A stretch of DNA of 64,000 nucleotides from Burkholderiales bacterium LSUCC0115 (GTDB lineage Bacteria > Pseudomonadota > Gammaproteobacteria > Burkholderiales > Burkholderiaceae_A). The translations under genes and the position numbers were made by a program. The number at the start of each line of letters is the position of its first letter. The first letter of the stretch is position 1. The DNA lies in NCBI GenBank assembly GCA_009646425.1, contig WJBW01000001.1:330547-394546 (forward strand). The letters are read 5' to 3'. This document shows, one piece after another, positions 3,752-28,207 of this stretch. The notes under the pieces are model-generated. The model was not told the DNA's origin. It saw only the letters and a list, made by a program, of their open reading frames with translations, and did not search any database.

Positions 3752-3773
3752 TCCACCCTCCTGTGAGTGAACA

Positions 3774-5949: not shown

Positions 5950-5955
5950 CCTTTT

Positions 5956-6642: not shown

Positions 6643-6652
6643 GGACACGCGT

Positions 6653-8179: not shown

Positions 8180-8199
8180 CCTCTTCTAGTAAGTCTTGC

Positions 8200-9951
8200 T
8201 TAGTGAATGTCTGGCTCGCCTGGTGACGGCCCAAACTCGGTCTTCAGGAAATCAAAATCGCAGCCTTTGTCCGCCTGCTCGATGTGCTTTGTGAACATCC
8301 AGCCATAGCCACGACCAAACCGGGGGGGCGGAGGCGTCCACGCCTGCCTTCGAGCCGCCAGCTCCTCATCGGATACCAGCATGTTGAGTGTCCGATTGGG
8401 AATGTCCATCTCGACCAGGTCACCGGTCTTGAGCAGGGCTAGAGGACCACCGACATAAGATTCGGGTGCCACGTGCAAAACACAAGCGCCGTATGAGGTA
8501 CCACTCATTCTGGAGTCCGACAGACGAACCATGTCTCGAATGCCCTTTTTGAGCAAAGCCTTGGGCATGGGGATCATGCCCCACTCCGGCATGCCAGGCC
8601 CCCCCTGCGGTCCCGCGTTACGCAGAACCAGAACGGTGTTGGGATCCATGTCCAGGTCTTCGTTCTCGATAATCGCCGTCAGGCTGTCGTAATCATCTGC
8701 CACCAGGGCTGGTCCCGTGTGCTTATAAAACTTGGGATCACAAGCGGCTGGTTTGATGACTGCGCCATCTGGCGCCAAGTTACCCTTGAGTACGGCCAGG
8801 CTACCCTCGTGATAAACGGGATTGTCCAGCGATCGGATGACGTCTGGGTTAAAGACCTTGGCGCCATCGATGTCCTCACCCAAGGTGCGACCCGAGACGG
8901 TTAGAACCTGGGTGTGTAGCCGCTCCTTGATCCGGTTCATGAGTGCGCGCAGACCACCCGCATAGAAGAAATCCTCCATCAGGTAGGTCTTGCCGACCGG
9001 ACGGACATTGGCTACTACTGGGGTGTGGCGGCCAATCGCATCCAGCGCCTCCAGTGAGAACGGCACACCAGCCCGTCTGGCCATGGCCAGTAAGTGGATC
9101 ACCGCGTTGGTAGAGCAGCCAATCGCCATCGCGACGACACCCGCGTTCTCTACGGCCTGAGGCGTCAGGATTTCGTCAGGGGTTAGATCCTCCCAGACCA
9201 TCTCGACGATTCGACGTCCAGATTCTGCGCACATGCGCTGATGGTTCGCGTCGGCCGCCAGAATAGAGCTAGCACCGGGCAAGGTGAGCCCCAATGCTTC
9301 GGCAATGGCCGTCATGGTCGAGGCGGTGCCCATGGTCATGCAATGACCATAAGACCGGGCAATGCCACCCTCTACCCCAACCCACTCCTCTGCTGTAATC
9401 GTGCCAGCGCGCCGCTCATCCCAGTACTTCCAACTGTCACTGCCAGAGCCAAGCACCTCTCCGCGGTAATTGCCCCGCAACATAGGGCCTGCCGGCACAT
9501 AGATAAATGGCAAACCCATCGAGACGGCGCCCATCACCAAGCCAGGTGTGGTCTTGTCACACCCTCCCATCAGGACAGCGCCATCCACAGGATGGCTGCG
9601 CAGCAGCTCTTCCGTCTCCATGGCCAGCATGTTTCGGTAGAGCATGGTGGTTGGTTTGACGTAGCTCTCACTCAAAGACAGTGCAGGAAGTTCTAACGGA
9701 AACCCGCCAGCCTGGAGGATGCCGCGCTTAATGTCTTCAACCCGATGTTTAAAGTGGGCATGACAAGGCTGTGCATCTGACCAGGTGTTCACAACTGCAA
9801 TGATCGGCTTGCCCACCCAGTCGGCTGGTGCATAGCCCATCTGCATGGTTCTGGAGCGATGCCCAAAAGACCGCAGATCATCTGGCGCCATCCAACGGGC
9901 ACTTCTAAAAGCCTCCGCCTGCTTACGAGGCTTGGTTCGTTTCATAGCCAT
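8200..9951 (-). CDS. IlvD/Edd family dehydratase (sugar-acid dehydratase)
   Basis: 583 residues from the ATG at 9951 (MAMKRTKP). Fe-S cluster Cys residues are visible in WSDAQPCHAHF, MGGCDKTTPG and the GCSTNAVIH segment. The catalytic Ser/Lys region appears as SDSRMSGTSYG. Close relatives in sugar-acid operons act on arabinonate, xylonate or similar aldonates rather than on branched-chain precursors, and no ilv genes are nearby. The region between the 40-residue membrane ORF and this start is only 4 bp. Substrate assignment is inference from context. Confidence 0.9.
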   Translation of the reverse strand: MAMKRTKPRKQAEAFRSARWMAPDDLRSFGHRSRTMQMGYAPADWVGKPIIAVVNTWSDAQPCHAHFKHRVEDIKRGILQAGGFPLELPALSLSESYVKPTTMLYRNMLAMETEELLRSHPVDGAVLMGGCDKTTPGLVMGAVSMGLPFIYVPAGPMLRGNYRGEVLGSGSDSWKYWDERRAGTITAEEWVGVEGGIARSYGHCMTMGTASTMTAIAEALGLTLPGASSILAADANHQRMCAESGRRIVEMVWEDLTPDEILTPQAVENAGVVAMAIGCSTNAVIHLLAMARRAGVPFSLEALDAIGRHTPVVANVRPVGKTYLMEDFFYAGGLRALMNRIKERLHTQVLTVSGRTLGEDIDGAKVFNPDVIRSLDNPVYHEGSLAVLKGNLAPDGAVIKPAACDPKFYKHTGPALVADDYDSLTAIIENEDLDMDPNTVLVLRNAGPQGGPGMPEWGMIPMPKALLKKGIRDMVRLSDSRMSGTSYGACVLHVAPESYVGGPLALLKTGDLVEMDIPNRTLNMLVSDEELAARRQAWTPPPPRFGRGYGWMFTKHIEQADKGCDFDFLKTEFGPSPGEPDIH

Positions 9952-9955
9952 AGTC

Positions 9956-10078
9956 TTATGCGAACCCTTGCGCCAGCCCAAACATCAACAAGACAACCGA
10001 AGCCGAGAGCAGGCCGCCAGCGACCCAGGCCCAAATGCCATATTTGTCTGCCTCTTCAAGTCCTTCACGACCAACCAT
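9956..10078 (-). CDS. Small single-pass membrane protein (40 aa) in the TRAP operon
   Basis: A short ORF with ATG at 10078 preceded by AAAGGAGC at good spacing. The product starts MVGREGLEEADKYGIWAW and has one hydrophobic helix (VAGGLLSASVVLLMFGLA). It fills exactly the gap between the TRAP permease gene and the dehydratase gene, 11 bp after the permease stop and 4 bp before the next start. I do not recognise a named family. The ribosome site, membrane helix and tight packing support a real gene, perhaps an accessory of the transporter. Confidence 0.6.
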   Translation of the reverse strand: MVGREGLEEADKYGIWAWVAGGLLSASVVLLMFGLAQGFA

Positions 10079-10089
10079 AGTCAGCTCCT

Positions 10090-12150
10090 TTACTTTCCGA
10101 GAGTCTCAGGTAGCCACAGTGCAATCTGTGGGAAAGCCACGACCAAGACCAAACCAATGGCCTGCAGTGCAATGAACGGCAGCACCGACATGAAGATCTC
10201 ATGCAGCGTGACGTCTTTCGGTGCCACGGACTTCAGCCAGAAACAGGCAGGCCCAAAGGGTGGTGACAAGAAGTAAATCTGAATGTTCATCACAAACAGA
10301 ATGCCGAACCAGATCTTGGCCTGATCGGGAGTCAATCCAAGCTCAGGCGCCAAGGTCACCACCACCGGCGCAAAAACCGGCACAGTGATAAAGACGATGG
10401 CGATCCACTCCATAAAGGTGCCCAAGACCACCAAGATGGCCATCATCAAGAGAATGACCCCCAGTGCGGGAATGCCGAGTCCCGTGAAAAGAGACCGCAT
10501 GAAATCAGCGCCACCAATCAGGTTGTAGATGCCGACAAAAGAGACCGCACCTAAAATCAGCCAGATGATCGTGCCGACGGTTGCCATCGAGCCAACCAGA
10601 GAGACGCGGACGATGTCCCAACGCCAACCTGAGCGCACAAAGGCCACTACGATTGAGCCAACAGCACCCACTGCGGCCGCTTCGGTTACCGAGGCAATAC
10701 CGCCATAAATCGATCCCATCACACCGCCGATAAGAGCGATGCTCAGAAAGACAGCCTGCAGTCTCTGCTTGGAGAGCTTCTGTTCTTTCCCGGTCATGGC
10801 CACCACTTCAGCTGCCGTAGGCGCGAGCTTGGGGTTTAGGTTGACGCGAACCAGTACGTAAATGGCATAGAAGGCTGCCAGCATGAAGCCAGGCACAAAG
10901 CCCGCCATGAAGAGATCACCGATGCCCACCTCGGCCGACAGGCCATAGACGATCATGACAATCGATGGGGGAATAAGCGTGGCCAGCGCACCGGACGCAC
11001 AGATCAAGCCAATCGATAGCTTGCGGTCATAGCCCAAGCGGAAGAGCTGCGGCAGGGCGACCAAGCCCAACATCACAATTTCGCCACCCATCACACCCGA
11101 CATAGCGGCCAGAATCACAGCGACCACCACCGTCTGAACTGCAACTCCACCACGCAAATTGCCCGCAAAGATGGACATCGCGTCAAATAGATCTTCAGCA
11201 ATACCCGCCTTTTCCAACACAGAGGCCATCAAGACAAAAAACGGGATGGCAACCAGGGTGTAGTGATCAAGCAATCCACCGGCGTTTGTCGAGACTAGAT
11301 ACAGACCTTTGGGCCCAAAAAAGCCAATGGCCATGATGACGGAAACAATCAGAGTCACAATGCCCAGTGGCATGCCGGTCATCATCAGCGCGACCAAGAC
11401 CACCACCATGGCGAGGGAAATCACTCCCAGCCCGTATGAGCGAAGGTCCAACGTGTCTTTGATGTCGAAGCTTGCTGCGAATTGGGTAAAGCCTGAGGCA
11501 ATGGTCTGAAACAGACTGATGTCCGCAAAGGCGTGCTTCAAGATGGCATTGAGCACATAGAACGCCATCAAGGCACCCACCAATTTCACAGCCGTTCGGG
11601 CTGCGTTCGAGCGCACCAGATAATGGAAATTGACGGTTAGCTGGGCCAGGTAGAGTCCGCAGCCAATTACCAAAAAGCTCTTGAGCAACATGGGCATGGG
11701 CGAGTTGAAGGCACTGCCAGCCCGCTCCACCCGGTGAATGGCCTCAGCGGCCTCGACCAAGGCGTCGGTGAGCAAGAGAAACAGCGACACCATGCCCACG
11801 ATGTGACCAAACACTGCCAGTCGCCACTGGTTCTTCTCCGAAACTGAGTGCGAGATAACGGTGATGGAAATGTGCTTCTGGCGCAACGTGATGTAGCCAG
11901 ACGAGAACATCCAACAGCCCGCGATGAGCACCATGGTCATCTCGAAGGCCCACTGAGTCGGTGCATGAAGGAAATAACGGGAGACCACCTCCCACAATGT
12001 GGCGATTGCTGCCACCAAGAACATGACCGCAGAGGCCACGCCACAGAAGTGGCTGATGTGGTCCATGACCCCATAGGGTCGCTGCATCATCGGGGTATTT
12101 TCGTCATCTGGCTCTGTGTGGACGTCGAGCTCGGCAGTCTGGGAACCCAT
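10090..12150 (-). CDS. TRAP transporter permease, fused small (DctQ) and large (DctM) subunits
   Basis: 686 residues. The first ~190 carry a four-helix DctQ-like domain after a polar N terminus (FCGVASAVMFLVAAIATLWEVVSRYF). The remainder is the DctM domain, with MGVMGGEIVMLGLVALPQL, ASGALATLIPPSIVMIVYGL and EWIAIVFITVPVFAP. Fused QM permeases couple sodium entry to uptake of organic acids delivered by a DctP protein, whose gene lies just upstream. The start ATG at 12150 has AAAGGAT upstream. A stem-loop separates it from dctP. Confidence 0.93.
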   Translation of the reverse strand: MGSQTAELDVHTEPDDENTPMMQRPYGVMDHISHFCGVASAVMFLVAAIATLWEVVSRYFLHAPTQWAFEMTMVLIAGCWMFSSGYITLRQKHISITVISHSVSEKNQWRLAVFGHIVGMVSLFLLLTDALVEAAEAIHRVERAGSAFNSPMPMLLKSFLVIGCGLYLAQLTVNFHYLVRSNAARTAVKLVGALMAFYVLNAILKHAFADISLFQTIASGFTQFAASFDIKDTLDLRSYGLGVISLAMVVVLVALMMTGMPLGIVTLIVSVIMAIGFFGPKGLYLVSTNAGGLLDHYTLVAIPFFVLMASVLEKAGIAEDLFDAMSIFAGNLRGGVAVQTVVVAVILAAMSGVMGGEIVMLGLVALPQLFRLGYDRKLSIGLICASGALATLIPPSIVMIVYGLSAEVGIGDLFMAGFVPGFMLAAFYAIYVLVRVNLNPKLAPTAAEVVAMTGKEQKLSKQRLQAVFLSIALIGGVMGSIYGGIASVTEAAAVGAVGSIVVAFVRSGWRWDIVRVSLVGSMATVGTIIWLILGAVSFVGIYNLIGGADFMRSLFTGLGIPALGVILLMMAILVVLGTFMEWIAIVFITVPVFAPVVVTLAPELGLTPDQAKIWFGILFVMNIQIYFLSPPFGPACFWLKSVAPKDVTLHEIFMSVLPFIALQAIGLVLVVAFPQIALWLPETLGK

Positions 12151-12178
12151 GCCTATCCTTTCAACAACACATAAAGGA

Positions 12179-12211
12179 GCCGAGACATTTGGTCAGGACA
12201 AATGCCTCGGC
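12179..12211 (-). promoter_or_regulatory. Intercistronic stem-loop between dctP and dctQM
   Basis: GCCGAG-A-CATTTG pairs with CAAATG-C-CTCGGC around a 7-nt loop: 12 pairs with one mismatch. No T-run follows on the minus strand, so it is more like an mRNA-stabilising or partial-termination element that would let the binding protein be made in excess over the permease. Confidence 0.55.
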
Positions 12212-12232
12212 TTGGGAAAAGCTACCGAAGGT

Positions 12233-13264
12233 TTACTTCAGCAGACCTTTCTTCTTCATGTAGGCCATGTGGCTCTCGTAGGCCTCTTTGCCCAGCGGAG
12301 TAGCCTTTCCAAAGGCCTCCCAGGCGCCGGTCGCGATCTGACGGAACTTGTCGCGCTCGGCCTGCGCCCAATCGATGACCGTGACGTCCTTGCCGGCCTT
12401 GTCACGCGCAACCAGTTCCTTGTCTTTCTTATCGCCCGCAGCGGTTAGACCAGCGTAGGCGTCCTGATACCACTGCTCAAACGTCTTGCGATCCTCGGCA
12501 GACATTTTTTTCCAGACACTGGTCGAAACCGTCAACTGAAGAACAGGCATGGAGTGGATGCCAGGGTAAATCGGATACTTGGCGACCTTGTGTAGGCCGT
12601 TGGCGTCATTGTTTGAATAGGAAGAGTTGTCCGCCGCATCAATCACGCCCTTTTCCAGAGCGGTGTAAACCTCGGAGCCGGGTAGCGAGACTGGAGCAGC
12701 ACCGGCGCGCTTAAAGACCTCAGCCGCCAAACCCTCGGGCGAACGGATCTTCTTACCTTTCATGTCCGCTACTGTGCGGATGGGCACCTTCGAGACAAAG
12801 GCCTCGCGGTTATAGGTACCGCAAGCGACCACTGTCACGCCAGGCTGGTATTTATCGAAGAGCTTTTGCAGCAGTTCACGACCCCCACCGTTGCGGCAGT
12901 AATCTTGAATCTGCTGGGGGGTGTCATAGCCGGCGATCAGGTCACCGATCAGCGCGAATGCAGGATCAAGGCCAGAGAAATAGCTGGTCGAGGTCCAATC
13001 ACCATCCAGAATGCCAGTGGCAACAGCCTTAGGCGTGTCCTTGTGAGGGACAACGGCCTTAATCGGTAGAAGTTCAATCTCCCAACGGCCCTGGGTGCGC
13101 TTTTTAAGTTCCGGAACCCAGTTCTCATTAAGGTAAGCAAGCGAGAAGTGGCTCGCGTTGGAACTGGTTTGAATTTTTAGTTTTTGGGCGAAGGCTGGTA
13201 GCGATGACGTCATGAATCCAACGGCTAGGGCCGAGGCCAGTACTTTTTTAAACGGGGCTCTCAT
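12233..13264 (-). CDS. dctP: TRAP transporter substrate-binding protein DctP
   Basis: 343 residues with a signal peptide (MRAPFKKVLASALAVGFMTS..PAFA) and the DctP fold: SSNASHFSLAYLNENWVPEL near the N terminus, GGGRELLQKLFDKYQPGV in the middle and VWKKMSAEDRKTFEQWYQDA near the C terminus. The Arg in the KGKKIRSPEGL segment is the usual carboxylate clamp. It is periplasmic and delivers an organic acid to the fused permease. It is the first gene of the minus-strand catabolic operon, so the transporter is probably made before the enzymes. The divergent intergenic region at 13265-13443 should hold its promoter. Confidence 0.93.
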   Translation of the reverse strand: MRAPFKKVLASALAVGFMTSSLPAFAQKLKIQTSSNASHFSLAYLNENWVPELKKRTQGRWEIELLPIKAVVPHKDTPKAVATGILDGDWTSTSYFSGLDPAFALIGDLIAGYDTPQQIQDYCRNGGGRELLQKLFDKYQPGVTVVACGTYNREAFVSKVPIRTVADMKGKKIRSPEGLAAEVFKRAGAAPVSLPGSEVYTALEKGVIDAADNSSYSNNDANGLHKVAKYPIYPGIHSMPVLQLTVSTSVWKKMSAEDRKTFEQWYQDAYAGLTAAGDKKDKELVARDKAGKDVTVIDWAQAERDKFRQIATGAWEAFGKATPLGKEAYESHMAYMKKKGLLK

Positions 13265-13326
13265 CGATTGTTTCTCCTGATAGTTAGAAAAAGTGGGGCT
13301 TACACCCTCTGTGAGACAACTTATAC

Positions 13327-13340
13327 ACTAATATATTAGT
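13327..13340. promoter_or_regulatory. 14-bp perfect palindrome, candidate GntR operator
   Basis: ACTAATATATTAGT is a perfect palindrome in the A+T-rich gap between divergent dctP and the RraA-family gene. Its position, between both promoters, and the GntR-family gene in the operon make it the best operator candidate. It does not spell the classical FadR consensus, so the regulator match is inference. Confidence 0.45.
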
Positions 13341-13443
13341 ACATAAGACCGACAAACTTTGAGTGCATCAACCCACCATTCCTAGCTCGCAAAAACCCTA
13401 TAATCTTAAAAAGTTCATATAAAACATTATCTTAGGAGACCGT

Positions 13444-14163
13444 ATGGCCACTATTACCCCCGAGGCCCGTAAGAAACTCGAGTCCTGTAGCACCGCTACG
13501 CTGACTACCCTCTTGTTCAAGCGCGGACTCAACAAACAATTTATACAAAACGTTTATCCGCTCGGTAAGTACGGAAAAAGCATGGTCGGCGAGGCCTTCA
13601 CGCTGCGAACCATTCCCGCCAGAGAGGACCTAAACCCCATCACCGCCTTTCGGAATCCCGAGCACCCTCAACGCAAAGCCGTCGAGACTTGTCCGGCCGG
13701 TCACATCCTGGTCGTAGACAGCCGCAAGGATCCACGCGCCGCCTCGGCTGGTTCCATCCTGATCACTCGACTGATGAAACGTGGCGTTGCTGGCATCGTC
13801 ACCGACGGCGGCTTTCGAGATGCTCCCGAAATTGCCGAGCTGCCCTTCCCGGCTTATCACAGCCGCCCTTCAGCCCCCACCAACCTCACCCTTCACCAGC
13901 CCATTGAAATGAACGTGCCAATTGCCTGCGGCGATGCGCCCGTTTTCCCTGGTGACATTCTGGTCGGTGATGGCGAGGGTGTCGTTGTTCTGCCAGCGAA
14001 CATCGCAGAGGAAATGGCTCACGAGGCCTTTGAGATGACCATCTTCGAAGACTTCGTTCTGGAGCGGGTCAACGCCGGTGATAGCATCATTGGGCTCTAT
14101 CCCCCAACCGATCCTCAGACCGAAGTGAACTTCGCCCAATGGCGCAAACAAAAAGGCCGCTAG
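13444..14163 (+). CDS. RraA-family protein (aldolase/decarboxylase-like), module A
   Basis: 239 residues; CTTAGGAGACC gives a clear ribosome site before the ATG. The RraA/HMG-aldolase signature is present: PAGHILVVDSRKDPRAASAGSI followed by GVAGIVTDGGFRDAPEI, where the Gly-rich loop, the Arg and the Asp bind substrate and metal, and GDILVGDGEGVVVLP near the C terminus. Family members with these residues cleave 4-hydroxy-4-methyl-2-oxoglutarate-type acids or decarboxylate oxaloacetate; true RraA proteins inhibit RNase E. In a catabolic cluster the enzymatic role is more likely. It forms a divergent two-gene unit with the MFS gene 16 bp downstream. Confidence 0.85.
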   Translation: MATITPEARKKLESCSTATLTTLLFKRGLNKQFIQNVYPLGKYGKSMVGEAFTLRTIPAREDLNPITAFRNPEHPQRKAVETCPAGHILVVDSRKDPRAASAGSILITRLMKRGVAGIVTDGGFRDAPEIAELPFPAYHSRPSAPTNLTLHQPIEMNVPIACGDAPVFPGDILVGDGEGVVVLPANIAEEMAHEAFEMTIFEDFVLERVNAGDSIIGLYPPTDPQTEVNFAQWRKQKGR

Positions 14164-14179
14164 CCAAAGGCTCCTTGCA

Positions 14180-15553
14180 ATGAGTCGACGGCGTGGCCTG
14201 TCCTACCGCCTGTGGCATGGGGTGGCCACCCGTCAGCGCTTTCTGGCGTTGATCCTCCTGTGCATGGCTTTGACAGTTGCGGTTGGTGAGCGGTCCGCCC
14301 TCTCGATTGCTGCCCCCAGTCTCCAGTCAGACTTGGGCCTGACCACCATTGAACTGGGATGGCTCTTATCAGCCTTCGCCTGGAGCTATGTGGCCGCTCA
14401 TATTCCAGTGGGCATCATCGTCGAGAAGCATGGGACCAAGCGGTCGATTGGCATCGGCATTGCAATCGGAGCCCTGACCAGTCTAGTGGTTGCAGCCTCT
14501 GGCTTGTCGATCTTCACCAGCTCCGCGCTCGGCATCATCCTTGCCGCCCGCGTTTTGCTGGGTGTGGCCCAGGCACCCGTTGGATCCAGCTCTGGGGTTG
14601 TCATGTCGGCCTGGTTCCCGAGAACTGAGCGTGGCGTAGCGGGAGCTGTGTTCAGCTCCATTCCCTATCTGGCTGTCGCAGTCCTAAATCCACTTCTGGG
14701 TTATCTCACCGAGCACGCAGGCTGGGCGACCATGTTTGTCGGCATGGCCGCCATTAGCCTGCTCGGTGCCCACGTCTGGTTCTCCATCTTTCAGCTGCCC
14801 AGTGGTACACCCAGACTAACGGCCAAAGAACGACGAAAAATTGAAGCAGGTGGGGCCCTTACGTCAATCACGCACAGTCGATCACTCAGCCACGCCCCCA
14901 CCCAGTCCAACTCAGTCCTGGATGATCTCAAGGCAGTCTTTCTAAATCCCATGATGGGTGGCACCGTGATTGCACAGTACTGCATCAACGCCATCACATG
15001 GTTTTTCTTGGCGTGGTTTCCAAGCTACCTGGTGATGTCCTTTGATTACTCGATTGCACGTGCTGCCGCCGTCTCTGCTATTCCAGCAGTCGCTGGCTTT
15101 GTGGGTGGCTTTGCCTGCGGGTTGTTGTCTGATGCCATTCTTAAGCGAACACATAACCTGACTCGCGCCAGAAAGATTCCCATCTACATCGGCATTGGAT
15201 TGTCTTCGCTTAGTTTCTTAGCGTGCATCCTGACCGACAACGACACCATCGCAATCATCCTGATGACTGCAGCATTTTTTGGCAAAGGATTGGGGACACT
15301 GGGCTGGACGTTGGTCGCCGACCTGGCACCAGCCAACAAGGTTGGCTTTACCGGCAGCGTGGTCAATGGAGTTGGCAATCTGTCGGGCATCTTCACACCG
15401 GTGATCATCGGCTATCTGATCGCAGCGACTCACAACTTTGACCTGGCCTTGGTCATCATGGCCTGTCATGGCCTAATCGCCATTTCTTGCCACATCTGGC
15501 TAACCGGAACACTGCAGCGCATGCCACCAGTCCAGCACCGACCTACAGCGTAA
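14180..15553 (+). CDS. MFS transporter, anion:cation symporter family (sugar-acid type)
   Basis: 457 residues, about 12 membrane helices. The N-terminal segment GERSALSIAAPSLQSDLGLT and SAFAWSYVAAHIPVGIIVEKHGTKR match the ACS family (ExuT/GudP/phthalate transporters), with the MFS A-like loop between helices 2 and 3. A long polar central loop (about residues 200-240) is followed by the second six-helix half. It probably imports a hexuronate, aldarate or related acid by proton symport, giving module A two independent uptake systems. It is the last gene of module A. Confidence 0.88.
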   Translation: MSRRRGLSYRLWHGVATRQRFLALILLCMALTVAVGERSALSIAAPSLQSDLGLTTIELGWLLSAFAWSYVAAHIPVGIIVEKHGTKRSIGIGIAIGALTSLVVAASGLSIFTSSALGIILAARVLLGVAQAPVGSSSGVVMSAWFPRTERGVAGAVFSSIPYLAVAVLNPLLGYLTEHAGWATMFVGMAAISLLGAHVWFSIFQLPSGTPRLTAKERRKIEAGGALTSITHSRSLSHAPTQSNSVLDDLKAVFLNPMMGGTVIAQYCINAITWFFLAWFPSYLVMSFDYSIARAAAVSAIPAVAGFVGGFACGLLSDAILKRTHNLTRARKIPIYIGIGLSSLSFLACILTDNDTIAIILMTAAFFGKGLGTLGWTLVADLAPANKVGFTGSVVNGVGNLSGIFTPVIIGYLIAATHNFDLALVIMACHGLIAISCHIWLTGTLQRMPPVQHRPTA

Positions 15554-15561
15554 GCGCGGAC

Positions 15562-15655
15562 CTAACGCGGCACCGCCACCTGAGTCATCCGCGCCTGAAT
15601 GACCTCGGCCTTCTGCACAATCAAATAAGGCGGATTCGTCGGGCTATCACTAACA
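15562..15655 (-). pseudogene. Remnant of an mtgA-like 3' end
   Basis: Minus-strand translation ends QKAEVIQARMTQVAVPR followed by TAG. The complete MtgA encoded at 37290-38006 ends QKAEVIQARMQQVVVPR followed by TAG, and the DNA is also similar over roughly 65 bp. Nothing upstream in this frame resembles a transglycosylase. This is a C-terminal scrap of a second, non-identical mtgA, carried at the right end of module A and presumably picked up from another genome. Confidence 0.65.
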
Positions 15656-15810
15656 CGTCCCGTTTCCGGACACTCAGCTAGCAGGGCCTGCTGCTGGACC
15701 AACCCTGGCTTGTGACGTCTCCGCGTCTCGTGACTTAACTACTTTTTAACTACAGCTCTTTTGGGTATCGTTAGGTTGTTGATTTAATTAGAGAACCAAA
15801 AGCCGTTGGC
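15656..15810. other. Conserved right-end sequence of module A
   Basis: Aligns without gaps to 21663-21817 at the end of module B. The best block is the first 100 bp, with 23 bp identical around TTAACTAC-TTT-TTAACTAC. On the minus strand both copies keep an open frame whose product contains LSHETR and CPETGR, so a small degenerate gene may lie here. The spacing to the tRNA repeat is the same in both, which marks this as an element end. Confidence 0.65.
15735..15753 (+). promoter_or_regulatory. Paired TTAACTAC boxes, candidate integrase arm sites (left of junction A/B)
   Basis: TTAACTAC occurs at 15735-15742 and 15746-15753, one helical turn apart (11 bp), 76 bp before the tRNA repeat. The same pair at the same distance precedes the repeat at the end of module B. 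Tyrosine recombinases use such repeated arm sites beside the core; the assignment is inference. Confidence 0.5.
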
Positions 15811-15858
15811 GCCTTCACACGGCAGGGGTCACAGGTTCGAACCCTGTGCTGTCCACCA
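15811..15858 (+). repeat. Attachment-site repeat 2 (tRNA-Val 3' half), A/B junction
   Basis: 48 bp identical to 1228-1275, ending CCACCA. The 5' half of the tRNA is absent, so it cannot make a tRNA. It is preceded by GTTGGC, as in repeat 4 and nearly as in repeat 3 (GCTGGC), instead of the tRNA anticodon stem, which places the strand exchange at or right of the GCC. Confidence 0.88.
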
Positions 15859-15919
15859 CCCAAATTCATGCTTTTTCAGTGACCTACTCTTGGTCGCTCA
15901 GCTGCCCCATGACCCAAAA

Positions 15920-15943
15920 GTAGTTAACATTTTTGTTTACTAC
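15920..15943 (-). promoter_or_regulatory. Inverted arm-like boxes right of junction A/B
   Basis: GTAGTTAA at 15920-15927 is the reverse complement of TTAACTAC; TTTACTAC at 15936-15943 is a one-base variant in the other direction. They sit about 62-85 bp right of repeat 2, roughly mirroring the boxes on its left, so the whole of 15735-15943 resembles an attP with P and P' arms. Confidence 0.45.
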
Positions 15944-15973
15944 TTTTAAGGCCCCTATTCCCCGACTTCTCGA

Positions 15974-16912
15974 TTAAACGGGGACCGATGTACGTGATTG
16001 CCTAAGGACGTTTAGCACATTCCCTACTGAGGCAACACCCATCTTGGTATAGGCGTCTGCGGTGACACCGCCGATATGTGGGGTCAATAGAATTCTTGGC
16101 TCTTGATGAAAGTCATGGGACGGCAACATTGGCTCCACATGGAAACTATCAAGCCCAGCGGAGGAGAGCTGTCCTGACCGGACAGCCTCAAGCAACGCAC
16201 CTTCGTCAATGAGCCCGCCTCTTGCGGTATTCACGAGAATTGCACCTCGCTTTAAGGATGCGAGTGTCCCCGCATTGATGAAATTACGATTTTCATCAGT
16301 CAGGGGGCAGTGGAGCGAGACGACATCAGAATTACTGAGTAGGTCCGGCAACGTGACCAATTCGATGTAGTCTGGCAATGGACTGGCATATGGATCGAAG
16401 CCCAATACTCGCATGTTCATTGCATGTGCAATTGCCGCAAAACGCCGCCCAATTGCGCCAAGGCCAACGACTCCCACCACGCGCCCATCTAACTCTATGC
16501 TCTTGTGTGTCGCCTTATCCCAGTGTCCAGCGCGCATCCTTGCATCGAGGCCAACAATTGATTTTGCGCAGGCCAGCATCAATGCAACAGCATGTTCAGC
16601 TACGGCTGCAGCATTGGCGCCGACAGCCGCCGTCACCTGAATTCCCCGCTCGTTTGCGGCTTCTTTATCGATCGTATCGGTACCACTCCCATGCTTTGAA
16701 ATCACGCGCAGATTTGGAGAGGCATCCATTGCTTGGTAACCGACTTTTCCATAGCGGACAATGATGGCAACAGGATTGTGGTCGCCGCAAAGACGGACAA
16801 TGTCATCTTCAGATGGAGTCTTACCAGCGAACACCACATTAAATTCAGTAAGCAATGACATTGCCTCTGGTGCAAGATCAGCTGCTGTTACCAAAATCAC
16901 TGGCTTGCTCAA
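15974..16912 (-). CDS. D-2-hydroxyacid dehydrogenase (SerA/hydroxypyruvate-reductase-like)
   Basis: 312 residues starting at TTG 16912, whose last bases overlap the TGA of the upstream RraA-like gene (TTGA), so translation is probably coupled. The NAD-binding motif GLGAIGRRFA lies in the centre. Catalytic residues are seen as the Arg in NTARGGLIDEGAL, the Glu in DSFHVEPM and the His in LLTPHIGG. This family oxidises or reduces 2-hydroxy/2-oxo acids such as phosphoglycerate, glycerate or hydroxypyruvate. With an RraA-type lyase and a carboxylate importer it probably processes an imported hydroxy-acid; the exact substrate is unknown. Confidence 0.9.
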   Translation of the reverse strand: MSKPVILVTAADLAPEAMSLLTEFNVVFAGKTPSEDDIVRLCGDHNPVAIIVRYGKVGYQAMDASPNLRVISKHGSGTDTIDKEAANERGIQVTAAVGANAAAVAEHAVALMLACAKSIVGLDARMRAGHWDKATHKSIELDGRVVGVVGLGAIGRRFAAIAHAMNMRVLGFDPYASPLPDYIELVTLPDLLSNSDVVSLHCPLTDENRNFINAGTLASLKRGAILVNTARGGLIDEGALLEAVRSGQLSSAGLDSFHVEPMLPSHDFHQEPRILLTPHIGGVTADAYTKMGVASVGNVLNVLRQSRTSVPV

Positions 16913-17607
16913 AGCGCCTCTCCCTGCCCTATCACGCCAGCAGCTCTGAGGGCACCATCGAGCCACGTGGGTCTAAGAGCCTTACGACTCTTGATGTCGG
17001 ATATTCTTTTTGTTTCCGAATCAACTTTTTGGACTGCTAGTTCCAGTATGGATGGGACCTTGGCCCGCTCAATGACTGTGACTCCATCCGCATCGCCAAC
17101 GACGAGATCGCCGGGCGACACAGTTACTCCGCCAATTGAGATGGGGTGGTTTACCCGTCCGGGTACGTTTTTGGTTGGTCCGTTGGGATTCAGCCCAGCG
17201 GCAAACATAGGAAAACCTAGGTCACAAATGGCAGAAAAATCTCTGACGGCTCCATCAATCACAACAGCAGCTACTCCAAGCGCCACGCATTGTTGGGACA
17301 TAATTTCTCCCATTAAGGCGCTGGACAAGTCGCCTTTCCCGTCAACAACAATTACATCGCCCGGCTTTGCAATTGCCATTGCGGCATGAATCATTAGATT
17401 GTCCCCTGGTCTCACCTCTACCGTTAGGGCTGGTCCCGCAAACCTCATCTCAGGCGATAGAGGTGAGATACGCCCGCTCAGCCCACCTCTGCGTCCTGCA
17501 ACATCCGCAAGAATTGACGATGGAAACTGCGCCGCCCGATCTACCAGCGACTTCTCAGTTCGCTCGAAATCCTTTACAAAATCTGGCAACACATCAACTG
17601 AGATCAT
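16909..17607 (-). CDS. RraA-family aldolase/decarboxylase-like protein, module B
   Basis: 232 residues, family-complete. It has the Gly-rich and catalytic segments GDVIVVDGKGDLSSALMGE and VAAVVIDGAVRDFSAI (the RD pair binds carboxylate and metal) and the C-terminal GDLVVGDADGVTVIE. It is closer in wording to 4-carboxy-4-hydroxy-2-oxoadipate aldolase/oxaloacetate decarboxylase proteins than to the RNase E inhibitor. It lies between tctA (19 bp upstream) and the dehydrogenase gene (4-bp overlap), so the three are co-transcribed. It is the second RraA-type gene on the island and clearly diverged from the module A copy. Confidence 0.87.
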   Translation of the reverse strand: MISVDVLPDFVKDFERTEKSLVDRAAQFPSSILADVAGRRGGLSGRISPLSPEMRFAGPALTVEVRPGDNLMIHAAMAIAKPGDVIVVDGKGDLSSALMGEIMSQQCVALGVAAVVIDGAVRDFSAICDLGFPMFAAGLNPNGPTKNVPGRVNHPISIGGVTVSPGDLVVGDADGVTVIERAKVPSILELAVQKVDSETKRISDIKSRKALRPTWLDGALRAAGVIGQGEAL

Positions 17608-17626
17608 TCACCCACTCCCTTGTTAG

Positions 17627-19138
17627 TTAATCGTTGTCTGAGCTATCTATGACTGTCTTTCGTCTCATCCGAACGGCTGGCATCACCATCAGAACTAGCA
17701 ACCCGAATGTCACGCTAAGAAATGCCAGGCTTATGGGACGTGAGACAAAGACAGAGAAGTCGCCGTTGGACATCAAAAGTGCTCGCCTCAAGTTTTCTTC
17801 AAGCATCGGACCCAAGACGTATCCGAGTATCAGCGGGGCTGGTGGGCAGCCTAAGCGTGAAAATATGTACCCAAAAACGCCAATTAGCGCACACAGGTAG
17901 ACGTCCATTGCACTGTTGTTGAGGCTGTAATTTCCCACTGCAGCAAACATCAAAATTGCCGGGTAAAGCCATCTGTAGGGAACCTGCGTTAAACGGGCCC
18001 ATATGCCAACCAAAGGGAGGTTTAGAACAAGCAAGAGAACGTTTCCAATGAACATACTCGCCACCAGCCCCCAGAAGAGCTCTGGTTTTGAGGTCATGAC
18101 ATCCGGACCCGGCTGTATTCCCTGCATTGTTAGGGCCCCCAACATCAGAGCCATAACCGCAGTGGCTGGAATTCCCAACGTCAAGGTTGGTATGAAGTGA
18201 GTTTGGGCCGCTGCATTATTCGCAGCCTCTGGAGCAGCAACGCCTTCAATGGCTCCCTTGCCGAATCGCGATGGGTCTCTAGAAATTTTCTTTTCCAACA
18301 TGTAGGCCGAAAATGATGCAATCGAAGCAGTCATTCCCGGCAGCGCCCCAAAGAATGAACCTAAAGCGGTTCCTCTTAGCGTCGGGGACATAGCCTGCTT
18401 CATGTCCTGCCAAGTTGGCATGAGATTTCCGACGTTCTTTGAAAACACCTCCACCTTTTCATTCGAACTCAAGTTCTGAACAATCTCTGCAACGGCAAAC
18501 AGGCCCACGGCGAGGACCGTGAAGCCAATTCCATCGAGCAATTCCGTTATTCCCAGCGTGTAGCGCGGCAGACCTGAAGTCACATCTGTACCGACCATTC
18601 CCAACAGCAACCCAACTACTACCATCGCTAATGCCTTGACTAAATCGCCATGGGCTAACACAGCAGAGAACACAAGCCCCATGAACATGAGTGAAAAGTA
18701 CTCTGCGGCCCCAAACTCCAGAGCCCATACTCCGACAAGTGGCCCTAGAGTCGCCACAATCACAGTCGAAATGATCCCAGCGACGAAGGATGCAACAGCA
18801 GCAGTTGCCAAAGCGGCTCCGGCACGCCCCTGCCTCGCCATCTGATAGCCATCAATAGCCGTTACAGCAGATGACACCTCACCGGGCATGTTGACCAATA
18901 TTGCAGTTGTTGAGCCACCGTATTGCGCACCATAGAAGATGCCGGCCAGCATGATCAGCGAGTTAACCGGTTCCAATCCAAATGTGATTGGCAAAAGCAT
19001 CGCAATCGTGACCAACGGACCGATACCAGGAAGTACACCGATCATCGTTCCGAGAAGCACACCAACGAAGCAGTAAGCGAGTGTTTTTAGGCTAAGAGCA
19101 ACCCCAAAACCAAGTGCCAGTCCGCTAAGGATTTCCAT
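17627..19138 (-). CDS. tctA: Tripartite tricarboxylate transporter large permease TctA
   Basis: 503 residues with about 12 membrane helices and typical TctA segments: GVLPGIGPLVTIAMLLPITFGLEP, GIFYGAQYGGSTTAILVNMPGE, FFGALPGMTASIASF and GVAAPEAANNAAAQTHFIPTLTLGIP. It forms the membrane channel for a carboxylate delivered by TctC. The start ATG at 19138 is 12 bp after the tctB stop. Transcription order is tctC-tctB-tctA-RraA-dehydrogenase. Confidence 0.95.
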   Translation of the reverse strand: MEILSGLALGFGVALSLKTLAYCFVGVLLGTMIGVLPGIGPLVTIAMLLPITFGLEPVNSLIMLAGIFYGAQYGGSTTAILVNMPGEVSSAVTAIDGYQMARQGRAGAALATAAVASFVAGIISTVIVATLGPLVGVWALEFGAAEYFSLMFMGLVFSAVLAHGDLVKALAMVVVGLLLGMVGTDVTSGLPRYTLGITELLDGIGFTVLAVGLFAVAEIVQNLSSNEKVEVFSKNVGNLMPTWQDMKQAMSPTLRGTALGSFFGALPGMTASIASFSAYMLEKKISRDPSRFGKGAIEGVAAPEAANNAAAQTHFIPTLTLGIPATAVMALMLGALTMQGIQPGPDVMTSKPELFWGLVASMFIGNVLLLVLNLPLVGIWARLTQVPYRWLYPAILMFAAVGNYSLNNSAMDVYLCALIGVFGYIFSRLGCPPAPLILGYVLGPMLEENLRRALLMSNGDFSVFVSRPISLAFLSVTFGLLVLMVMPAVRMRRKTVIDSSDND

Positions 19139-19150
19139 ATCAGCCCTTAA

Positions 19151-19606
19151 CTAGAAATCGGGAAACAGTTGGTAAGGAAGTCCCAAGCCGACCACAAAGA
19201 TTAGGACCGCCAATGAGCAGAGAGCGCACGTAAGTAGCAAGACCTCGGTCCTGCTTCCACGCTCGCCAGCCATCACGCTGATCAACGTCATCAAGATCAG
19301 TGCGGGAATCAGCCCGAGATGCTCCATAACCCAGCCAAAAGTCACCAGCGCAATGGACAGCAAAGAAAGAGGAATCCAACCCCAGTCACCGACGCGATCA
19401 CCGCTAGATTTGACTGCACGGAGGATCAGCACCCCACCCAAAGCAAGGAGTATCAGACTTAGAACCCGAGGAAAGAAGCCTGGACCCATCTCCTGAAGAG
19501 ATCCAAATGGATAGGACATCCCGAGAATGAGTCCAACCGCTCCGATAGCCATGAACAGAACCCCCGATAGGAAGTTCTGTTCACGAAGAAGATTCAGCGA
19601 GAACAC
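19151..19606 (-). CDS. tctB: Tripartite tricarboxylate transporter small subunit TctB
   Basis: About 151 residues from GTG 19606, 4 bp after the tctC stop. The frame is open further upstream to 19708, but that part lies inside tctC and is not hydrophobic. Four membrane helices are visible, with the family-typical MGPGFFPRVLSLILLALG segment after the first. It is the accessory membrane subunit between TctC and TctA genes. The start codon is a judgement because the ribosome site is weak. Confidence 0.87.
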   Translation of the reverse strand: MFSLNLLREQNFLSGVLFMAIGAVGLILGMSYPFGSLQEMGPGFFPRVLSLILLALGGVLILRAVKSSGDRVGDWGWIPLSLLSIALVTFGWVMEHLGLIPALILMTLISVMAGERGSRTEVLLLTCALCSLAVLIFVVGLGLPYQLFPDF

Positions 19607-19610
19607 CTTG

Positions 19611-20579
19611 TTAGTTCTTCTTGATACCCGCTGCTTCAATAACACCGGCCCACTTCTTGCGATCTGCAGCAAGCTCACGCGAGAATGGTCCCTGACCCAG
19701 AGGAACAAGACTACCGAGCCTCTCCACTACAGCGGGAGTCTTTAGGACTTTCTCGAACTCTGAGTCCAGTCTGGCCACAACTTGGTTTGGTGTATCCGCT
19801 GGGACAGCGATCCCCCACCAAGTTCCAGCCTGAAAATCAGGAAATCCAGACTCCGAAACGGTTGGTACATCCGGCCACAGGGGATGACGCTTGGATGATG
19901 TAACGGCAAGGGGGCGAAGTTGGCCTGATTTAACGGGACCTTTGGATGATTCTAGAGATGCAATGTAGAAAGAGGCTCTGCCACTGATCACATCTGGGAG
20001 TGCCTGACTAGTGCCCTTATAGGGGACGTGCTTATAGGAAACACCAGCGACTTTTTTGAAATACTCACCCGTCAAATGCGCAACAGTTGCATTGCCGGGA
20101 GAAGCAAAAAGGAGTGACCCTGGATTTTTCTTGGCTGCCGCCACAAGGTCGGCAAGAGTCTTGAATGGTGAATTTGCTCCAACTGTGATCGCCAAGGGGG
20201 ACGCTGTCACCAGCGTAATCGGCGTGAAGTCCTTTATCGGGTCATAGGGAAGCGCACTCATGAGAGATGGTGCAATCGCCATGTTGCTGTTTTGCCCCAG
20301 AACAACGGTGTAACCATCTGCTTTGGATTTGGCAGCGGCATCAAGGCCAATCGTGCCGCCTGCGCCGGGTTTATTTTCGACGACCACCTTCCACCCTGTT
20401 TGCTTGGCCAACTGATCTGCCAATACCCGTCCAACGATGTCAGTACCCCCACCCGGTGGAAACGGGACAATCAGCTTGATGGGCTTGTCTGGGTAGGTCT
20501 GCGAAATCGCTGAGTTGGTGAACCCAAGAGCTGCAAAGAGTGCAACCCCGCACAGAGATGAAAAAGCGCGTCTTTTCAC
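19611..20579 (-). CDS. tctC: Bug-family periplasmic binding protein TctC
   Basis: 322 residues with a signal peptide (MKRRAFSSLCGVALFAALGF..ISQ) and the Bug-family opening YPDKPIKLIVPFPPGGGTDIVGR, whose loop binds the ligand carboxylate. Further conserved segments are VENKPGAGGTIG and HVPYKGTSQALPDVISG. It is periplasmic and supplies TctAB. It is the first gene of the module B operon, divergent from the LysR gene with a 107-bp gap. Bug proteins bind many di- and hydroxycarboxylates, so the ligand is open. Confidence 0.94.
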   Translation of the reverse strand: MKRRAFSSLCGVALFAALGFTNSAISQTYPDKPIKLIVPFPPGGGTDIVGRVLADQLAKQTGWKVVVENKPGAGGTIGLDAAAKSKADGYTVVLGQNSNMAIAPSLMSALPYDPIKDFTPITLVTASPLAITVGANSPFKTLADLVAAAKKNPGSLLFASPGNATVAHLTGEYFKKVAGVSYKHVPYKGTSQALPDVISGRASFYIASLESSKGPVKSGQLRPLAVTSSKRHPLWPDVPTVSESGFPDFQAGTWWGIAVPADTPNQVVARLDSEFEKVLKTPAVVERLGSLVPLGQGPFSRELAADRKKWAGVIEAAGIKKN

Positions 20580-20642
20580 GTTGTGTCTCCTATATTTAAT
20601 TGAGCCTCTTTGGTGTGGCTTTTTGCACTATCAACGCGCACA

Positions 20643-20662
20643 ATTCATAATGTCTATTGAAT
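20643..20662. promoter_or_regulatory. Inverted repeat in tctC-LysR gap, candidate LysR site
   Basis: ATTCA-N10-TGAAT (20643-20647 and 20658-20662) plus the adjacent palindrome GAATATTC at 20668-20675 lie between the two divergent starts. Dyads of this shape (T-N11-A class) bind LysR-type regulators near their own gene. Confidence 0.4.
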
Positions 20663-20686
20663 AATTTGAATATTCTGATAAAAAAT

Positions 20687-21613
20687 GTGAATAATTTAGA
20701 TACCCGAGATCTTCGATATTTCGAAGCAATTGCCGCTACCGAGCACTTAGGAACGGCGTCCAGCCTAGTTTCACGATCCCAGCCTGCGATGACCAGTTGC
20801 ATCAAACGGCTTGAATCAGCGTTGGGAGTGGCACTGGTAGAGCGGGTCGGCCGTGGGATAACCCTTACTCCGGCTGGGCGGGTTTTGGCTGACCGAGCGA
20901 AGAAGCTTCGATCATCAGTTGAGGAGATCGTAAGAGAGATCGCAGACATTGAGACGGGTAAAAGTGGCCTCATCAAGCTCGGCGTGCTGCCGACATTGGC
21001 TAAATTTTTTCTGCCAACGATATGCAGAAAAATTCTCAGTGATGCGCCCAAAGCACAGATTCAAACAACAATCGCCCAAAATGACGTGCTGAGCCGCCTT
21101 CTCAGAGATCGAGAGGTCGACATGATTCTGACAATTGCTAGTCAGGAGACAGGAGACTATGTCAGCCATACAGTTTTAGAGGACGAAGCTGTCGTGATGG
21201 CCAGTCAGAGCCACCCGTTATTTCAGGAGAAACGGGTAACGCTGCAATCGCTCCTCAATCACCCTTGGGTTCTAGCGCCCCCAACCGTTGGCACGAGAAA
21301 GTGGATCGAGGGCGTTTTTCGAAAAAACAGCCTTCCCGGCCCAAACGTTCAAATCGAAACAAATCAGATCTTGATGATGCCGAACCTGATATGTGAGACA
21401 AATCTCTTAGCCTTTACCTCTCGGCTACACGTTACCCACCCTGAAGGGATTGCATTTTTGAGGGAGGTACCACTGACTGAAACAACCATGCCTAGAAAAT
21501 TTGATTTGGTGTATCGCGCTGAATCTTACCTCCCCCCCGTCGCCCAGCATCTAATAGAGCTCCTGAAAGTCGAAGGTCCAGAGCTTCTCGCGCGCCCGGG
21601 GGGATCCCTATAG
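20687..21613 (+). CDS. LysR-family transcriptional regulator
   Basis: 308 residues if GTG 20687 is the start; a TTG at 20657 would add ten. The N-terminal winged helix-turn-helix is LDTRDLRYFEAIAATEHLGTASSLVSRSQPAMTSCIKRLES..GVALVERVGRG in pieces, followed by the linker helix and two-lobed effector domain (SGLIKLGVLPTLAKFFLP onward). It is divergent from the tctC operon, the standard arrangement for a LysR activator that senses the imported acid or a metabolite of it. It is the last gene before repeat 3. Confidence 0.9.
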   Translation: MNNLDTRDLRYFEAIAATEHLGTASSLVSRSQPAMTSCIKRLESALGVALVERVGRGITLTPAGRVLADRAKKLRSSVEEIVREIADIETGKSGLIKLGVLPTLAKFFLPTICRKILSDAPKAQIQTTIAQNDVLSRLLRDREVDMILTIASQETGDYVSHTVLEDEAVVMASQSHPLFQEKRVTLQSLLNHPWVLAPPTVGTRKWIEGVFRKNSLPGPNVQIETNQILMMPNLICETNLLAFTSRLHVTHPEGIAFLREVPLTETTMPRKFDLVYRAESYLPPVAQHLIELLKVEGPELLARPGGSL

Positions 21614-21662
21614 TCCCTCTAAAAGATCTATGTTTTGCTAGGAGTGCAGTCGTCGGACTAAT

Positions 21663-21817
21663 CGTCCTGTTTCCGGACACCTCACCACCAGGCCCTGGTC
21701 TTCGACAGACCCTGGTCTTTGAGAAACCCGCGTCTCATGACTTAACTACTTTTTAACTACAGCGTCTTAGAGGACGGCTAAGTCATTGAACAAAATAAGG
21801 AATCAAAAACCGCTGGC
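21663..21817. other. Conserved right-end sequence of module B
   Basis: Gap-free counterpart of 15656-15810. The 66 bp between TTAAGTCA and TGTCCGG (minus strand) match at about two thirds of positions as aligned by eye, and the flanking 23-bp box is identical. The minus-strand frame reads LSHETR...RCPETGRLVRRLHS and then TAG, so if a gene is conserved it is very short. Confidence 0.6.
21742..21760 (+). promoter_or_regulatory. Paired TTAACTAC boxes at right end of module B
   Basis: TTAACTAC at 21742-21749 and 21753-21760, 11 bp apart and 76 bp before the tRNA repeat, exactly as at 15735-15753. Candidate integrase or directionality-factor sites. Confidence 0.5.
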
Positions 21818-21865
21818 GTCTTCACACGGCAGGGGTCACAGGTTCGAACCCTGTGCTGTCCACCA
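21818..21865 (+). repeat. Attachment-site repeat 3 (tRNA-Val 3' half), B/C junction
   Basis: Identical to the tRNA from 21820 to 21865 (46 bp through CCA); one mismatch at 21819 (GTC for GCC). It is preceded by GCTGGC, close to the GTTGGC before repeats 2 and 4. Confidence 0.87.
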
Positions 21866-21946
21866 ATCAATTCAATTACTTACCAGCCGCAAGTCGCCGG
21901 CTTATGCGTTTTTGTCCATCGCCTGTCCATCAGGAGACGCAAAACC

Positions 21947-22954
21947 GTGGCTTCCATCCGACGCAGAGGCAGTTCTTGGCAGGCTCGAATCACTCGACAC
22001 AACCAACCATCGCTAGCGAAGTCTTTTGACTCGAAAAGCGAGGCGTTGCGTTGGGCAAGGCAGATCGAGACTCAACTCGACGGCACATGACTTAGACCAA
22101 AACAGTCCGTACCCACATCAATCACGCTGGCGGAGGTACTAGAAAAGTATCGAGCAGAGGTGACCACCTATAAGCGTGGCCACCACTCAGAGACTTATCG
22201 AATCAAGGCAATTAGCAGGCATTGGCTGGGCAAGAAGCGGCTTCGAGATGTATCGAAGGACGATGTCTATGACTACCGAGAAGAACGACTCAAGTGCATT
22301 CAGCCGTCATCCCTAAGACGAGAATTAAACCTCTTGAGTCATGTTTGGAACACAGCAAAAGATGAATGGGGAATGCCACTTCCGAACAATCCGTTCACCA
22401 AGGTACCTCTACCCAGAATGCCTGCTAGCAGACAGCGTCGACTATCTGCCGAGGAGGAAGACCTACTTTTGAAGTCGCTAGGAACCCCAAAGAACCGATC
22501 AACAGAGCAGATTGTCCGGTTTGCGATTGCCACAGGCCTTCGGCGCTCAGAAATCCTCAGGCTCGAGTGGACTGACATAGACAAAGCAAGAAGGTGTCTC
22601 CATGTAAAAGACACTAAAAACGGATCATCAAGATGGATACCGATAATGGAGGAGGTTGCTGCTGTCCTTCGCAATCAACATGATTCACAGTCGAGTCGAG
22701 TGTTCCCAGTATCGGAAAACGCCTTAAAGCTGGCGTGGACTAGATCACTAAAGAAGGCAGGAATCTGTGACCTTCATTTCCATGACCTTAGGCATGAAGC
22801 ACTTTCTCGCTGGGCAGACCGCCTGAATGGAAACGTATTCAAACTGCGTCAAATATCTGGCCACAGAACCCTCACGATGGTGATGCGCTACGTGCATCCA
22901 ATACTGGATGAAACCTACTATGGCAACGCCTTTTCTTTATCCTCCTCCGCATAA
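21947..22954 (+). pseudogene. Tyrosine recombinase (integrase) interrupted by an in-frame TGA
   Basis: A GTG at 21947 with AGGAG at 21932-21936 opens a frame reading VASIRRRGSSWQARITRH, the arm-binding N terminus of phage-type integrases. A TGA at 22088-22090 stops it after 47 codons. The same frame continues to 22954 with an intact SAM-like domain and catalytic domain: Arg in ATGLRRSEILR, Lys in KDTKNGSS, HDLRH, GHRTL and Tyr in RYVHP. The downstream part could start at GTG 22160 (264 residues), which would lack the arm-binding domain. So there is no frameshift, only one nonsense codon, in the readthrough-prone context TGA-C. Function is doubtful, but not excluded if UGA is read through or the fragments associate. 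Confidence 0.85.
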
Positions 22955-22987
22955 TTTGCAGAGGAGGAAAGTTAGCTCTAGCACAGA

Positions 22988-24403: not shown

Positions 24404-24624
24404 ATCTCCCTTTCTTAGTTTTTCTAGAGTTTACTTATCTTAAGTTCTTATTTTTATATATATATTTTTACGAATATAAAATGGTCAATTACAACGGTTG
24501 TGACGACCTAGGAATTGGCTTTAAATGCACGCTGTAGCGGCGTGCGCTTTCCGAATGACCGCCGATCTACAAAGCACCTATTTCCAATACCGGTGCTACA
24601 GCAGCCACCCAGCCCTATTCAATT

Positions 24625-24669
24625 TGAAAAAAGATGCGCCGACCGAGTAGAAACATCTCGATCAGCGCA
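24625..24669 (-). terminator. Rho-independent terminator of the metal-efflux operon
   Basis: On the minus strand TGCGC-T-GATCGAG pairs with CTCGGTC-GGCGCA around a 9-nt loop (two imperfect positions), followed by TCTTTTTTC. It lies 6 bp after the stop of the last operon gene. Confidence 0.8.
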
Positions 24670-24675
24670 CCGAGG

Positions 24676-25053: not shown

Positions 25054-25077
25054 TCTGAAACACTCCTTTTTAAATAA

Positions 25078-28197: not shown

Positions 28198-28207
28198 GTC
28201 ATGACTC

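Follow-up and report, generated by a model that had tools for sequence, protein, structure and literature searches.

The stretch of DNA analysed here, referred to as the window, covers 64 kb of the 1.84-Mb genome of Burkholderiales bacterium LSUCC0115, and its sole tRNA gene is a tRNA-Val(CAC) on the forward strand at 1201-1275 (ARAGORN). The last 46 bp of this gene (1230-1275; repeat family D2) recur on the same strand at 15813-15858, 21820-21865 and 32264-32309, which makes four core copies when the tRNA copy is counted, and over 40 bp the copies have no mismatch to the tRNA. The array reads tRNA, element A (14.6 kb), element B (6.0 kb), element C (10.4 kb) and flank. Element A (1276-15858; 14,583 bp) closes with core copy 2 at the A/B junction, element B (15859-21865; 6,007 bp) reaches to core copy 3 at the B/C junction, and one or more elements C (21866-32309) extend up to core copy 4, the end of the array. 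A and B carry no integrase gene, and C holds an unrelated, interrupted tyrosine integrase gene, RND efflux genes and a GDT1-like gene. The cargo of A includes an alpha/beta hydrolase, a TPP enzyme, an HpaI-type aldolase and TRAP and MFS transporters, and that of B a D-2-hydroxyacid dehydrogenase, an RraA-like protein, TctA and TctC; these calls rest on ten scanned proteins, and the four from B are all metabolic or transport proteins. A has a G+C content of 56.2%, B of 51.4% and C of 54.1%, as compared with 57.4% beyond the array. The GDT1-like gene (31471-32244) lies left of core copy 4, and among the matches listed its relative in the congener G010 (93% identical) lies right of the last core copy, before genes colinear with 32.6-51.7 kb of the window; an extra unit or a lost core could possibly explain this shift. 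A predicted protein at 22988-24403 has tandem RGIADNS-type repeats and no Pfam match.

The initial annotation had read a complete attP with paired arm sites into the A/B junction, and the boxes and spacings it named were all found. Two copies of TTAACTAC lie at 15735-15742 and 15746-15753 on the forward strand near the right end of A, with starts 11 bp apart and a 3-bp spacer, so placed that the pair (15735-15753) begins at -78 from the core. On the other side, near the left end of B, an inverted TTAACTAC at 15920-15927 and a one-mismatch TTTACTAC at 15936-15943 form an inverted pair (GTAGTTAA ... TTTACTAC; 15920-15943) at +107. The annotation's further observation, that the left pair recurs before the third repeat, was borne out as well: a direct pair on the forward strand at the right end of B (21742-21760; starts 21742 and 21753) precedes the 55-nt repeat copy at 21818 by 76 bp, the same distance as before the copy at 15811. 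In the whole 1.84-Mb genome, TTAACTAC-N3-TTAACTAC occurs at these two places, and at both of them a repeated tRNA-Val(CAC) 3' end follows at a distance of 78 bp. Boxes were absent from both sides of core 4 (32264), from the tRNA copy (1230) and from the right of the third core (21820).

A chance origin of this arrangement in the window was rejected. Exact TTAACTAC occurs five times, never farther than about 110 bp from a core copy, whereas 100 shuffles gave 0.14 occurrences on average and in no case five. In an anchor scan over 63,550 points, designed after the pattern had been seen, an exact 8-mer direct pair of period 11 combined with an inverted and a further copy of that 8-mer to its right turned up only around the A/B junction. 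Among the 11 genomes of the genus only the host genome has the exact direct pair, at two places; the ten congeners have none, and neither has the reversed control. Across 399 genomes of the order it was found at four sites in three genomes (two being those of the host genome, two in 3-kb stretches without a tRNA), as compared with five sites in four genomes for the reversed control; the motif alone is thus no rarer than its control, and the weight rests on its position beside the cores. The inverted arrangement, GTAGTTAA-N7..9-TTAACTAC, was found at seven places in three of the 399 genomes, all of this genus and four of them in the congener G003, and its reversed control at three places in three other genomes, so little fewer that this motif by itself hardly stands out either. 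Promoter elements were also rejected, there being no sigma-70-like site in 15600-16100.

IHF-like sites were looked for with a consensus that we take to be that of IHF. At the right ends of A and B they lie on the reverse strand at 15772-15784 (one mismatch) and 21779-21791 (two mismatches), each at offset -41. The test set comprised eight of 14 aligned right ends and 11 of 13 left ends, near-duplicates and core-less ends being left out. In all eight right ends the best match between the P pair and the core falls at -41 or -43 on the same strand with one or two mismatches, and each single match is weak, since shuffles reach its score in 4-33%; nine of the 11 left ends have a match at +59 to +61 with 0-2 mismatches, and at this common offset the window's own left end and that of G001 have none. 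The case for IHF rests on the common offset, which the related sequences owe in part to descent, the single matches being weak.

The core is present at up to three mismatches in seven of the 11 genomes of the genus. In G001, G002, G003 and G006 an inverted pair stands directly beside the tRNA-Val gene at +106 or +107; it is absent beside the tRNA of G000 and G007, and the G010 contig stops 15 bp past the tRNA. Contig C72 of G003 carries an independent full junction, with direct pair, core and inverted pair at 437, 515 and 621 (15735, 15813 and 15920 in the window), that is, with spacing within 1 bp of that in the window, and its direct pair contains the variant TTTACTAC found in the window's inverted pair. 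The initial annotation had named two outcomes that would speak against it, namely boxes at many unrelated promoters and their absence from other copies of the element family, and neither was observed. On the first point, the right-end pair, at up to two mismatches, has five places in the 11 congeneric genomes (reversed control 0), three directly before a core copy and two (G003 C44 and G001 C35) at right ends with a decayed core or none; on the second, the junction recurs in G003 and in the Limnohabitans clade.

In that clade the right ends carry TATACTAC or CATACTAC as the first box and TATACTAC as the second, at period 11 and offset -83, and the left ends carry GTAGTATGG...TTTACTAC at +107 or +108. 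The anchored right-end pattern was found at ten places in nine of 18 clade genomes and the left-end pattern in 18 of 90 Limnohabitans-genus genomes, with no hit for either control; in viral contigs, where the pattern for the G003 core variant was used, no left-end match was found. The P pair thus stands at -78 in the window's genus and at -83 in the Limnohabitans clade, and the P' pair at +105 to +108 throughout both. Between the genera the flanking sequence is largely unalignable and the box letters differ, yet the boxes, period and offsets are kept and the letters change on both sides of the core together.

The survey comprised 33 distinct core sites, sites being merged when they agree over 60 bp to each side of the core, or over the 30 bp that precede and the 40 bp that follow it; the two contigs of G001 count as one of them, and L175 and L183 stand outside this listing. 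A full arm-core-arm arrangement was found at six of the 33, in two genera, which supports the earlier reading of P and P' arms around a core: the window's 15813, L037 of G003, and L097, L177, L178 and L181, with the full junction in four Limnohabitans-clade genomes built on TATACTAC/CATACTAC. Three of these six both-arm sites had been retrieved via the direct-pair pattern. Likewise, eight of 18 core copies (L176-L182 and L184) were retrieved with the P pattern and have P by construction, three of the eight also having P'; P is present in 12 of the 17 copies with enough upstream sequence, eight of them P-retrieved, and in four of the nine others. None of 14 intact tRNA genes has P, and P' is present at 19 of the 31 sites with at least 110 bp downstream. 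As a separate observation, a core copy in Limnohabitans Bal53 is preceded by another pair, TGTCCTAA twice at period 11, and the 39.7 kb upstream of it hold neither a C-type integrase nor a tRNA.

The cognate enzyme is likely a member of a divergent clade of tyrosine integrases found at tRNA-Val(CAC). The junction-bearing contig C72 of G003 encodes a 452-aa protein that has no Pfam or NCBIfam match at 1e-3; it matches PHROG 1 (integrase) at 3e-18 and gives weak SAM-like matches. At E values up to 0.1, 21 of 25 relatives are hit by PF13102, with 3.5e-9 as the best value, and nine by PF00589, where the best value is 0.0011. G003 also has a 98%-identical part of this integrase beside its tRNA-Val gene, reading toward the tRNA, and short integrase remnants near a C48 core copy with a P' pair. 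Relatives are present in six of the 11 congeners at 1e-4. A species-genome scan with an eight-sequence alignment gave 79 loci, the best 80 of 166 candidates being kept; within this best 80, 16 loci besides the two of G003 are 53-55% identical to the G003 integrase, and 11 of these lie with tRNA-Val(CAC), two more with a core copy and none with another tRNA. In the same set L112 (50% identical) also lies with tRNA-Val, and the more distant loci lie with tRNAs for Arg, Pro, Thr, Ala, Met or Gln. By their titles the 16 loci are mostly from Limnohabitans, Comamonadaceae or Burkholderiales, with one from Akkermansia and one from Sphingomonadaceae. Three loci (L117, L132 and L171) are titled Bordetella parapertussis though they come from environmental MAGs, and these names are probably misassigned.

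Among the 90 Limnohabitans-genus genomes, 15 encode a clade integrase (at least 78% identity, one partial copy counted). Integrase and left-end pattern are found together in 12 genomes, the integrase alone in three, the pattern alone in six and neither in 69; the one-sided Fisher p of 2.5e-8 is optimistic because clade loci were the source of the pattern and the genomes share ancestry. In a set with one genome per species, ten integrases, counting that of the query genome itself, show 99-100% identity between genomes, a sign of recent spread. On the other hand, the window itself gave no credible match to any of 25 clade queries (best E 0.078), the host genome holds no clade member above 41% identity, the closest being at 41%, and the phage records and the eight viral-contig stretches gave no match and no confirmed relative, respectively. 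Plasmid records contained eight distant relatives (26-37% identical).

In an alignment of 25 clade integrases, from which L097 and L148 were left out, R281, K311, Y388, R391, R415 and Y425 are invariant in all 25, and R281, K311, R391 and Y425 fall in catalytic-type columns; the motif that we take to be the usual HxxR reads YxxR in this clade. In the AlphaFold2 model (mean pLDDT 84.7, pTM 0.57) the helical and catalytic parts are preceded by three strands plus one helix in residues 40-89, and the predicted fold is lambda-integrase-like. Lambda integrase gives the best Foldseek matches (E = 2e-8, TM 0.40) and ranks first in VIA-align (Z 18.1, 327 aligned, rmsd 15.7, model residues 26-439), a rank tied within 1 with other tyrosine recombinases. 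The single-domain rows have Z 14-17 and rmsd 1.7-3.2, so that the large whole-model rmsd probably comes from domain placement. The assignment of the N-terminal domain rests on the lambda chains and on secondary structure, residues before 95 being barely tested in the alignment, and phmmer against the PDB gave only one chain (E = 0.5).

Taken together, these results make it very probable, at the level of sequence comparison, that the A/B site is a composite attP-like junction, formed when CIME-like islands that lack an integrase and have lambda-type attachment ends accreted in tandem at tRNA-Val(CAC). Its direct pair would be the P arm at the right end of A and the inverted pair the P' arm at the left end of B. 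A lambda-type tyrosine integrase would contact the boxes through its N-terminal domain and use its two remaining domains for the tRNA-derived core, IHF presumably bending the DNA between arms and core, and the clade integrase is the candidate protein for binding the boxes. An integrated element would then have P' at its left end and P at its right end, and thus each newly stacked element would create the order P(new)-core-P'(old), which is the order at 15735-15943 and on contig C72 of G003. The annotation's idea that the right end of one element meets the left end of a sister element is accordingly kept, with the difference that B's own attP would form only upon excision; of its complete attP, both arm pairs and the core stand, in a composite site whose left end in the window has no good IHF-like match and whose matching integrase is absent from the window. 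B would have a canonical attL/attR pair (P' at core 2, P at core 3), from which a 6,007-bp circle is predicted if integrase is supplied, and it has two traits of a CIME as far as its sequence tells, being free of an integration gene with attL and attR both kept. Element A, with no P' pair beside core 1, does not keep both attL and attR, and having P without P' it should not excise alone. Since the clade integrase is missing from the window and its closest match in the genome is at 41%, B looks stranded without help. The boxless left ends of A and C and the boxless core 4 limit this best reading.

Several other readings were weighed against the composite junction. The inverted pair could be an intrinsic terminator that ends transcription of the tRNA or at the edge of the island, with only the left direct pair, or neither pair, serving an integrase. 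It is indeed a perfect or near-perfect inverted repeat adjoining A/T runs, none of 200 shuffles folds as well as any of the four examples (z -4.7 to -5.0), and Limnohabitans relatives preserve the stem with different letters. Yet in both genera the inverted pair and the direct pair across the core use one and the same 8-mer as their box, and the variant TTTACTAC is used alike in the window's inverted pair and in the direct pair of G003; the tRNAs of G000 and G007 do without the inverted pair, and the Limnohabitans left ends carry another stem-loop with a T run, read by eye, between core and pair. A terminator scan found none, with a requirement for three G-C pairs and five T that A/T-rich stems can escape. 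We therefore regard this reading as improbable, and the inverted pair may double as arm site and terminator. That the repeated boxes reflect shared ancestry only, as functionless end fragments copied along with the core, would agree with the right ends of A and B being 77% alike over 208 nt; it is hard to reconcile with boxes, period and offsets that persist between genera in largely unalignable flanks and with box letters that change in concert across the core, and we consider it very improbable.

Least probable of all is that the boxes are arm sites of the integrase of C, the only tyrosine integrase of the window, and this owner was rejected. It is a PF00589 integrase adjoining core 3 on the right, in a frame (21902-22954) where an in-frame stop parts an N-terminal piece from the open part (22160-22954, forward strand). 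However, the ends of C have no boxes, the four congeners with the inverted pair (G001, G002, G003 and G006) have no relative of it at E <= 1e-30, and a different period-11 pair lies beside it. This last is a TGTCCATC direct pair (TGTCCATC-GCC-TGTCCATC; 21913-21931, forward strand) between core 3 and the integrase. The window has just three exact 8-mer direct pairs of period 11, this one included, where about one would be expected by chance in 64 kb by simple arithmetic; it is possibly the arm pair of C's own integrase. At another place in the host genome, next to tRNA-His, there is a 43%-identical relative of this integrase whose 386-aa frame is open, with no exact period-11 8-mer pair beside it.

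The composite junction and its relatives belong to a known kind of system, to which they add a clean comparison of arm sites and a candidate clade of integrases. As in the lambda attP, where Int bridges core and arm sites across the IHF sites between them (PMC4880445), arm sites flank the core on both sides, here with putative IHF sites in between; unlike lambda, there are two plus two boxes, one pair direct and the other inverted, and the integrase clade is only distantly similar. The attP of cluster K mycobacteriophages is described with two pairs of predicted 11-bp arm repeats on either side of the core, P3/P4 being inverted relative to P1/P2, a stem-loop terminator between the core and P3, and an arm consensus that varies among related integrases (PMC3203893). 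The paired arms opposite each other across the core, a stem-loop between the core and one pair, here read by eye in Limnohabitans left ends, and the differing consensus are shared with our sites, whereas those phages use tmRNA or tRNA-Lys and the window's P' boxes face each other. The attP of ICEMlSym has five arm sites, all required for efficient integration (PMC11963761). CIMEs arise by decay and tandem accretion, as reviewed in PMC5704250, and B resembles them in lacking an integrase, keeping attL and attR and being stacked at a tRNA 3' end, but the window has no neighbouring ICE or IME with a matching integrase. Tandem metabolic islands bounded by RNA-gene 3'-end repeats are also found at ssrA of Dehalococcoides, 15 of them without an integration module (PMC3146451), there with a serine recombinase and ssrA as target. 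The additive flexible islands of 'Ca. Methylopumilus' (Methylophilaceae), again freshwater betaproteobacteria, have tRNA-end repeats before variable cargo; they differ in a 20-bp tRNA-Lys repeat, and the passages considered describe neither arm sites nor a cognate integrase (PMC10872708). A tycheposon is a tRNA-bounded cargo element with its own tyrosine recombinase of the tycheposon group, and A and B carry no such gene. Among the matches listed for literature on Limnohabitans islands, arm-type sites and tRNA-Val islands, a set with subscription papers mostly outside it, no description of this island or integrase family was found.

A motif read by eye thus becomes an integrase and a site that can be tested together. 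Two genera that share one geometry and differ in their boxes offer a natural experiment on how arm-site specificity shifts with the integrase, and the array suggests how small-genome bacteria may gain catabolic modules at one tRNA, with the prediction that B can still move and A is stuck. A bolder proposal, which seems to us rather unlikely, holds that integrase-less arm-core-arm islands such as B are, rather than products of decay, a working non-autonomous class, small metabolic cassettes mobilised in trans by rare helpers carrying the tRNA-Val integrase; in an analogy equally doubtful to us, their stacking at one tRNA would be like that of gene cassettes in an integron.

Two further islands at this tRNA were observed. 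The G413 island (L205-L207), about 55 kb at 54.2-109.3 kb of its contig, lies at tRNA-Val with a clade integrase at its left end, and encodes BrxL and an Eco57I-type methylase (BREX-type defence), two PhyH proteins and a second, PF00589 integrase; no relaxase or conjugation family was found in 20 scanned of its 34 ORFs of at least 200 aa. In G010, two core copies 710 bp apart (L022, 14675-15431) have nothing between them except two genes, one for a HigB-like toxin (PF05015) and an HTH gene, which is a minimal cassette at the same tRNA repeat.
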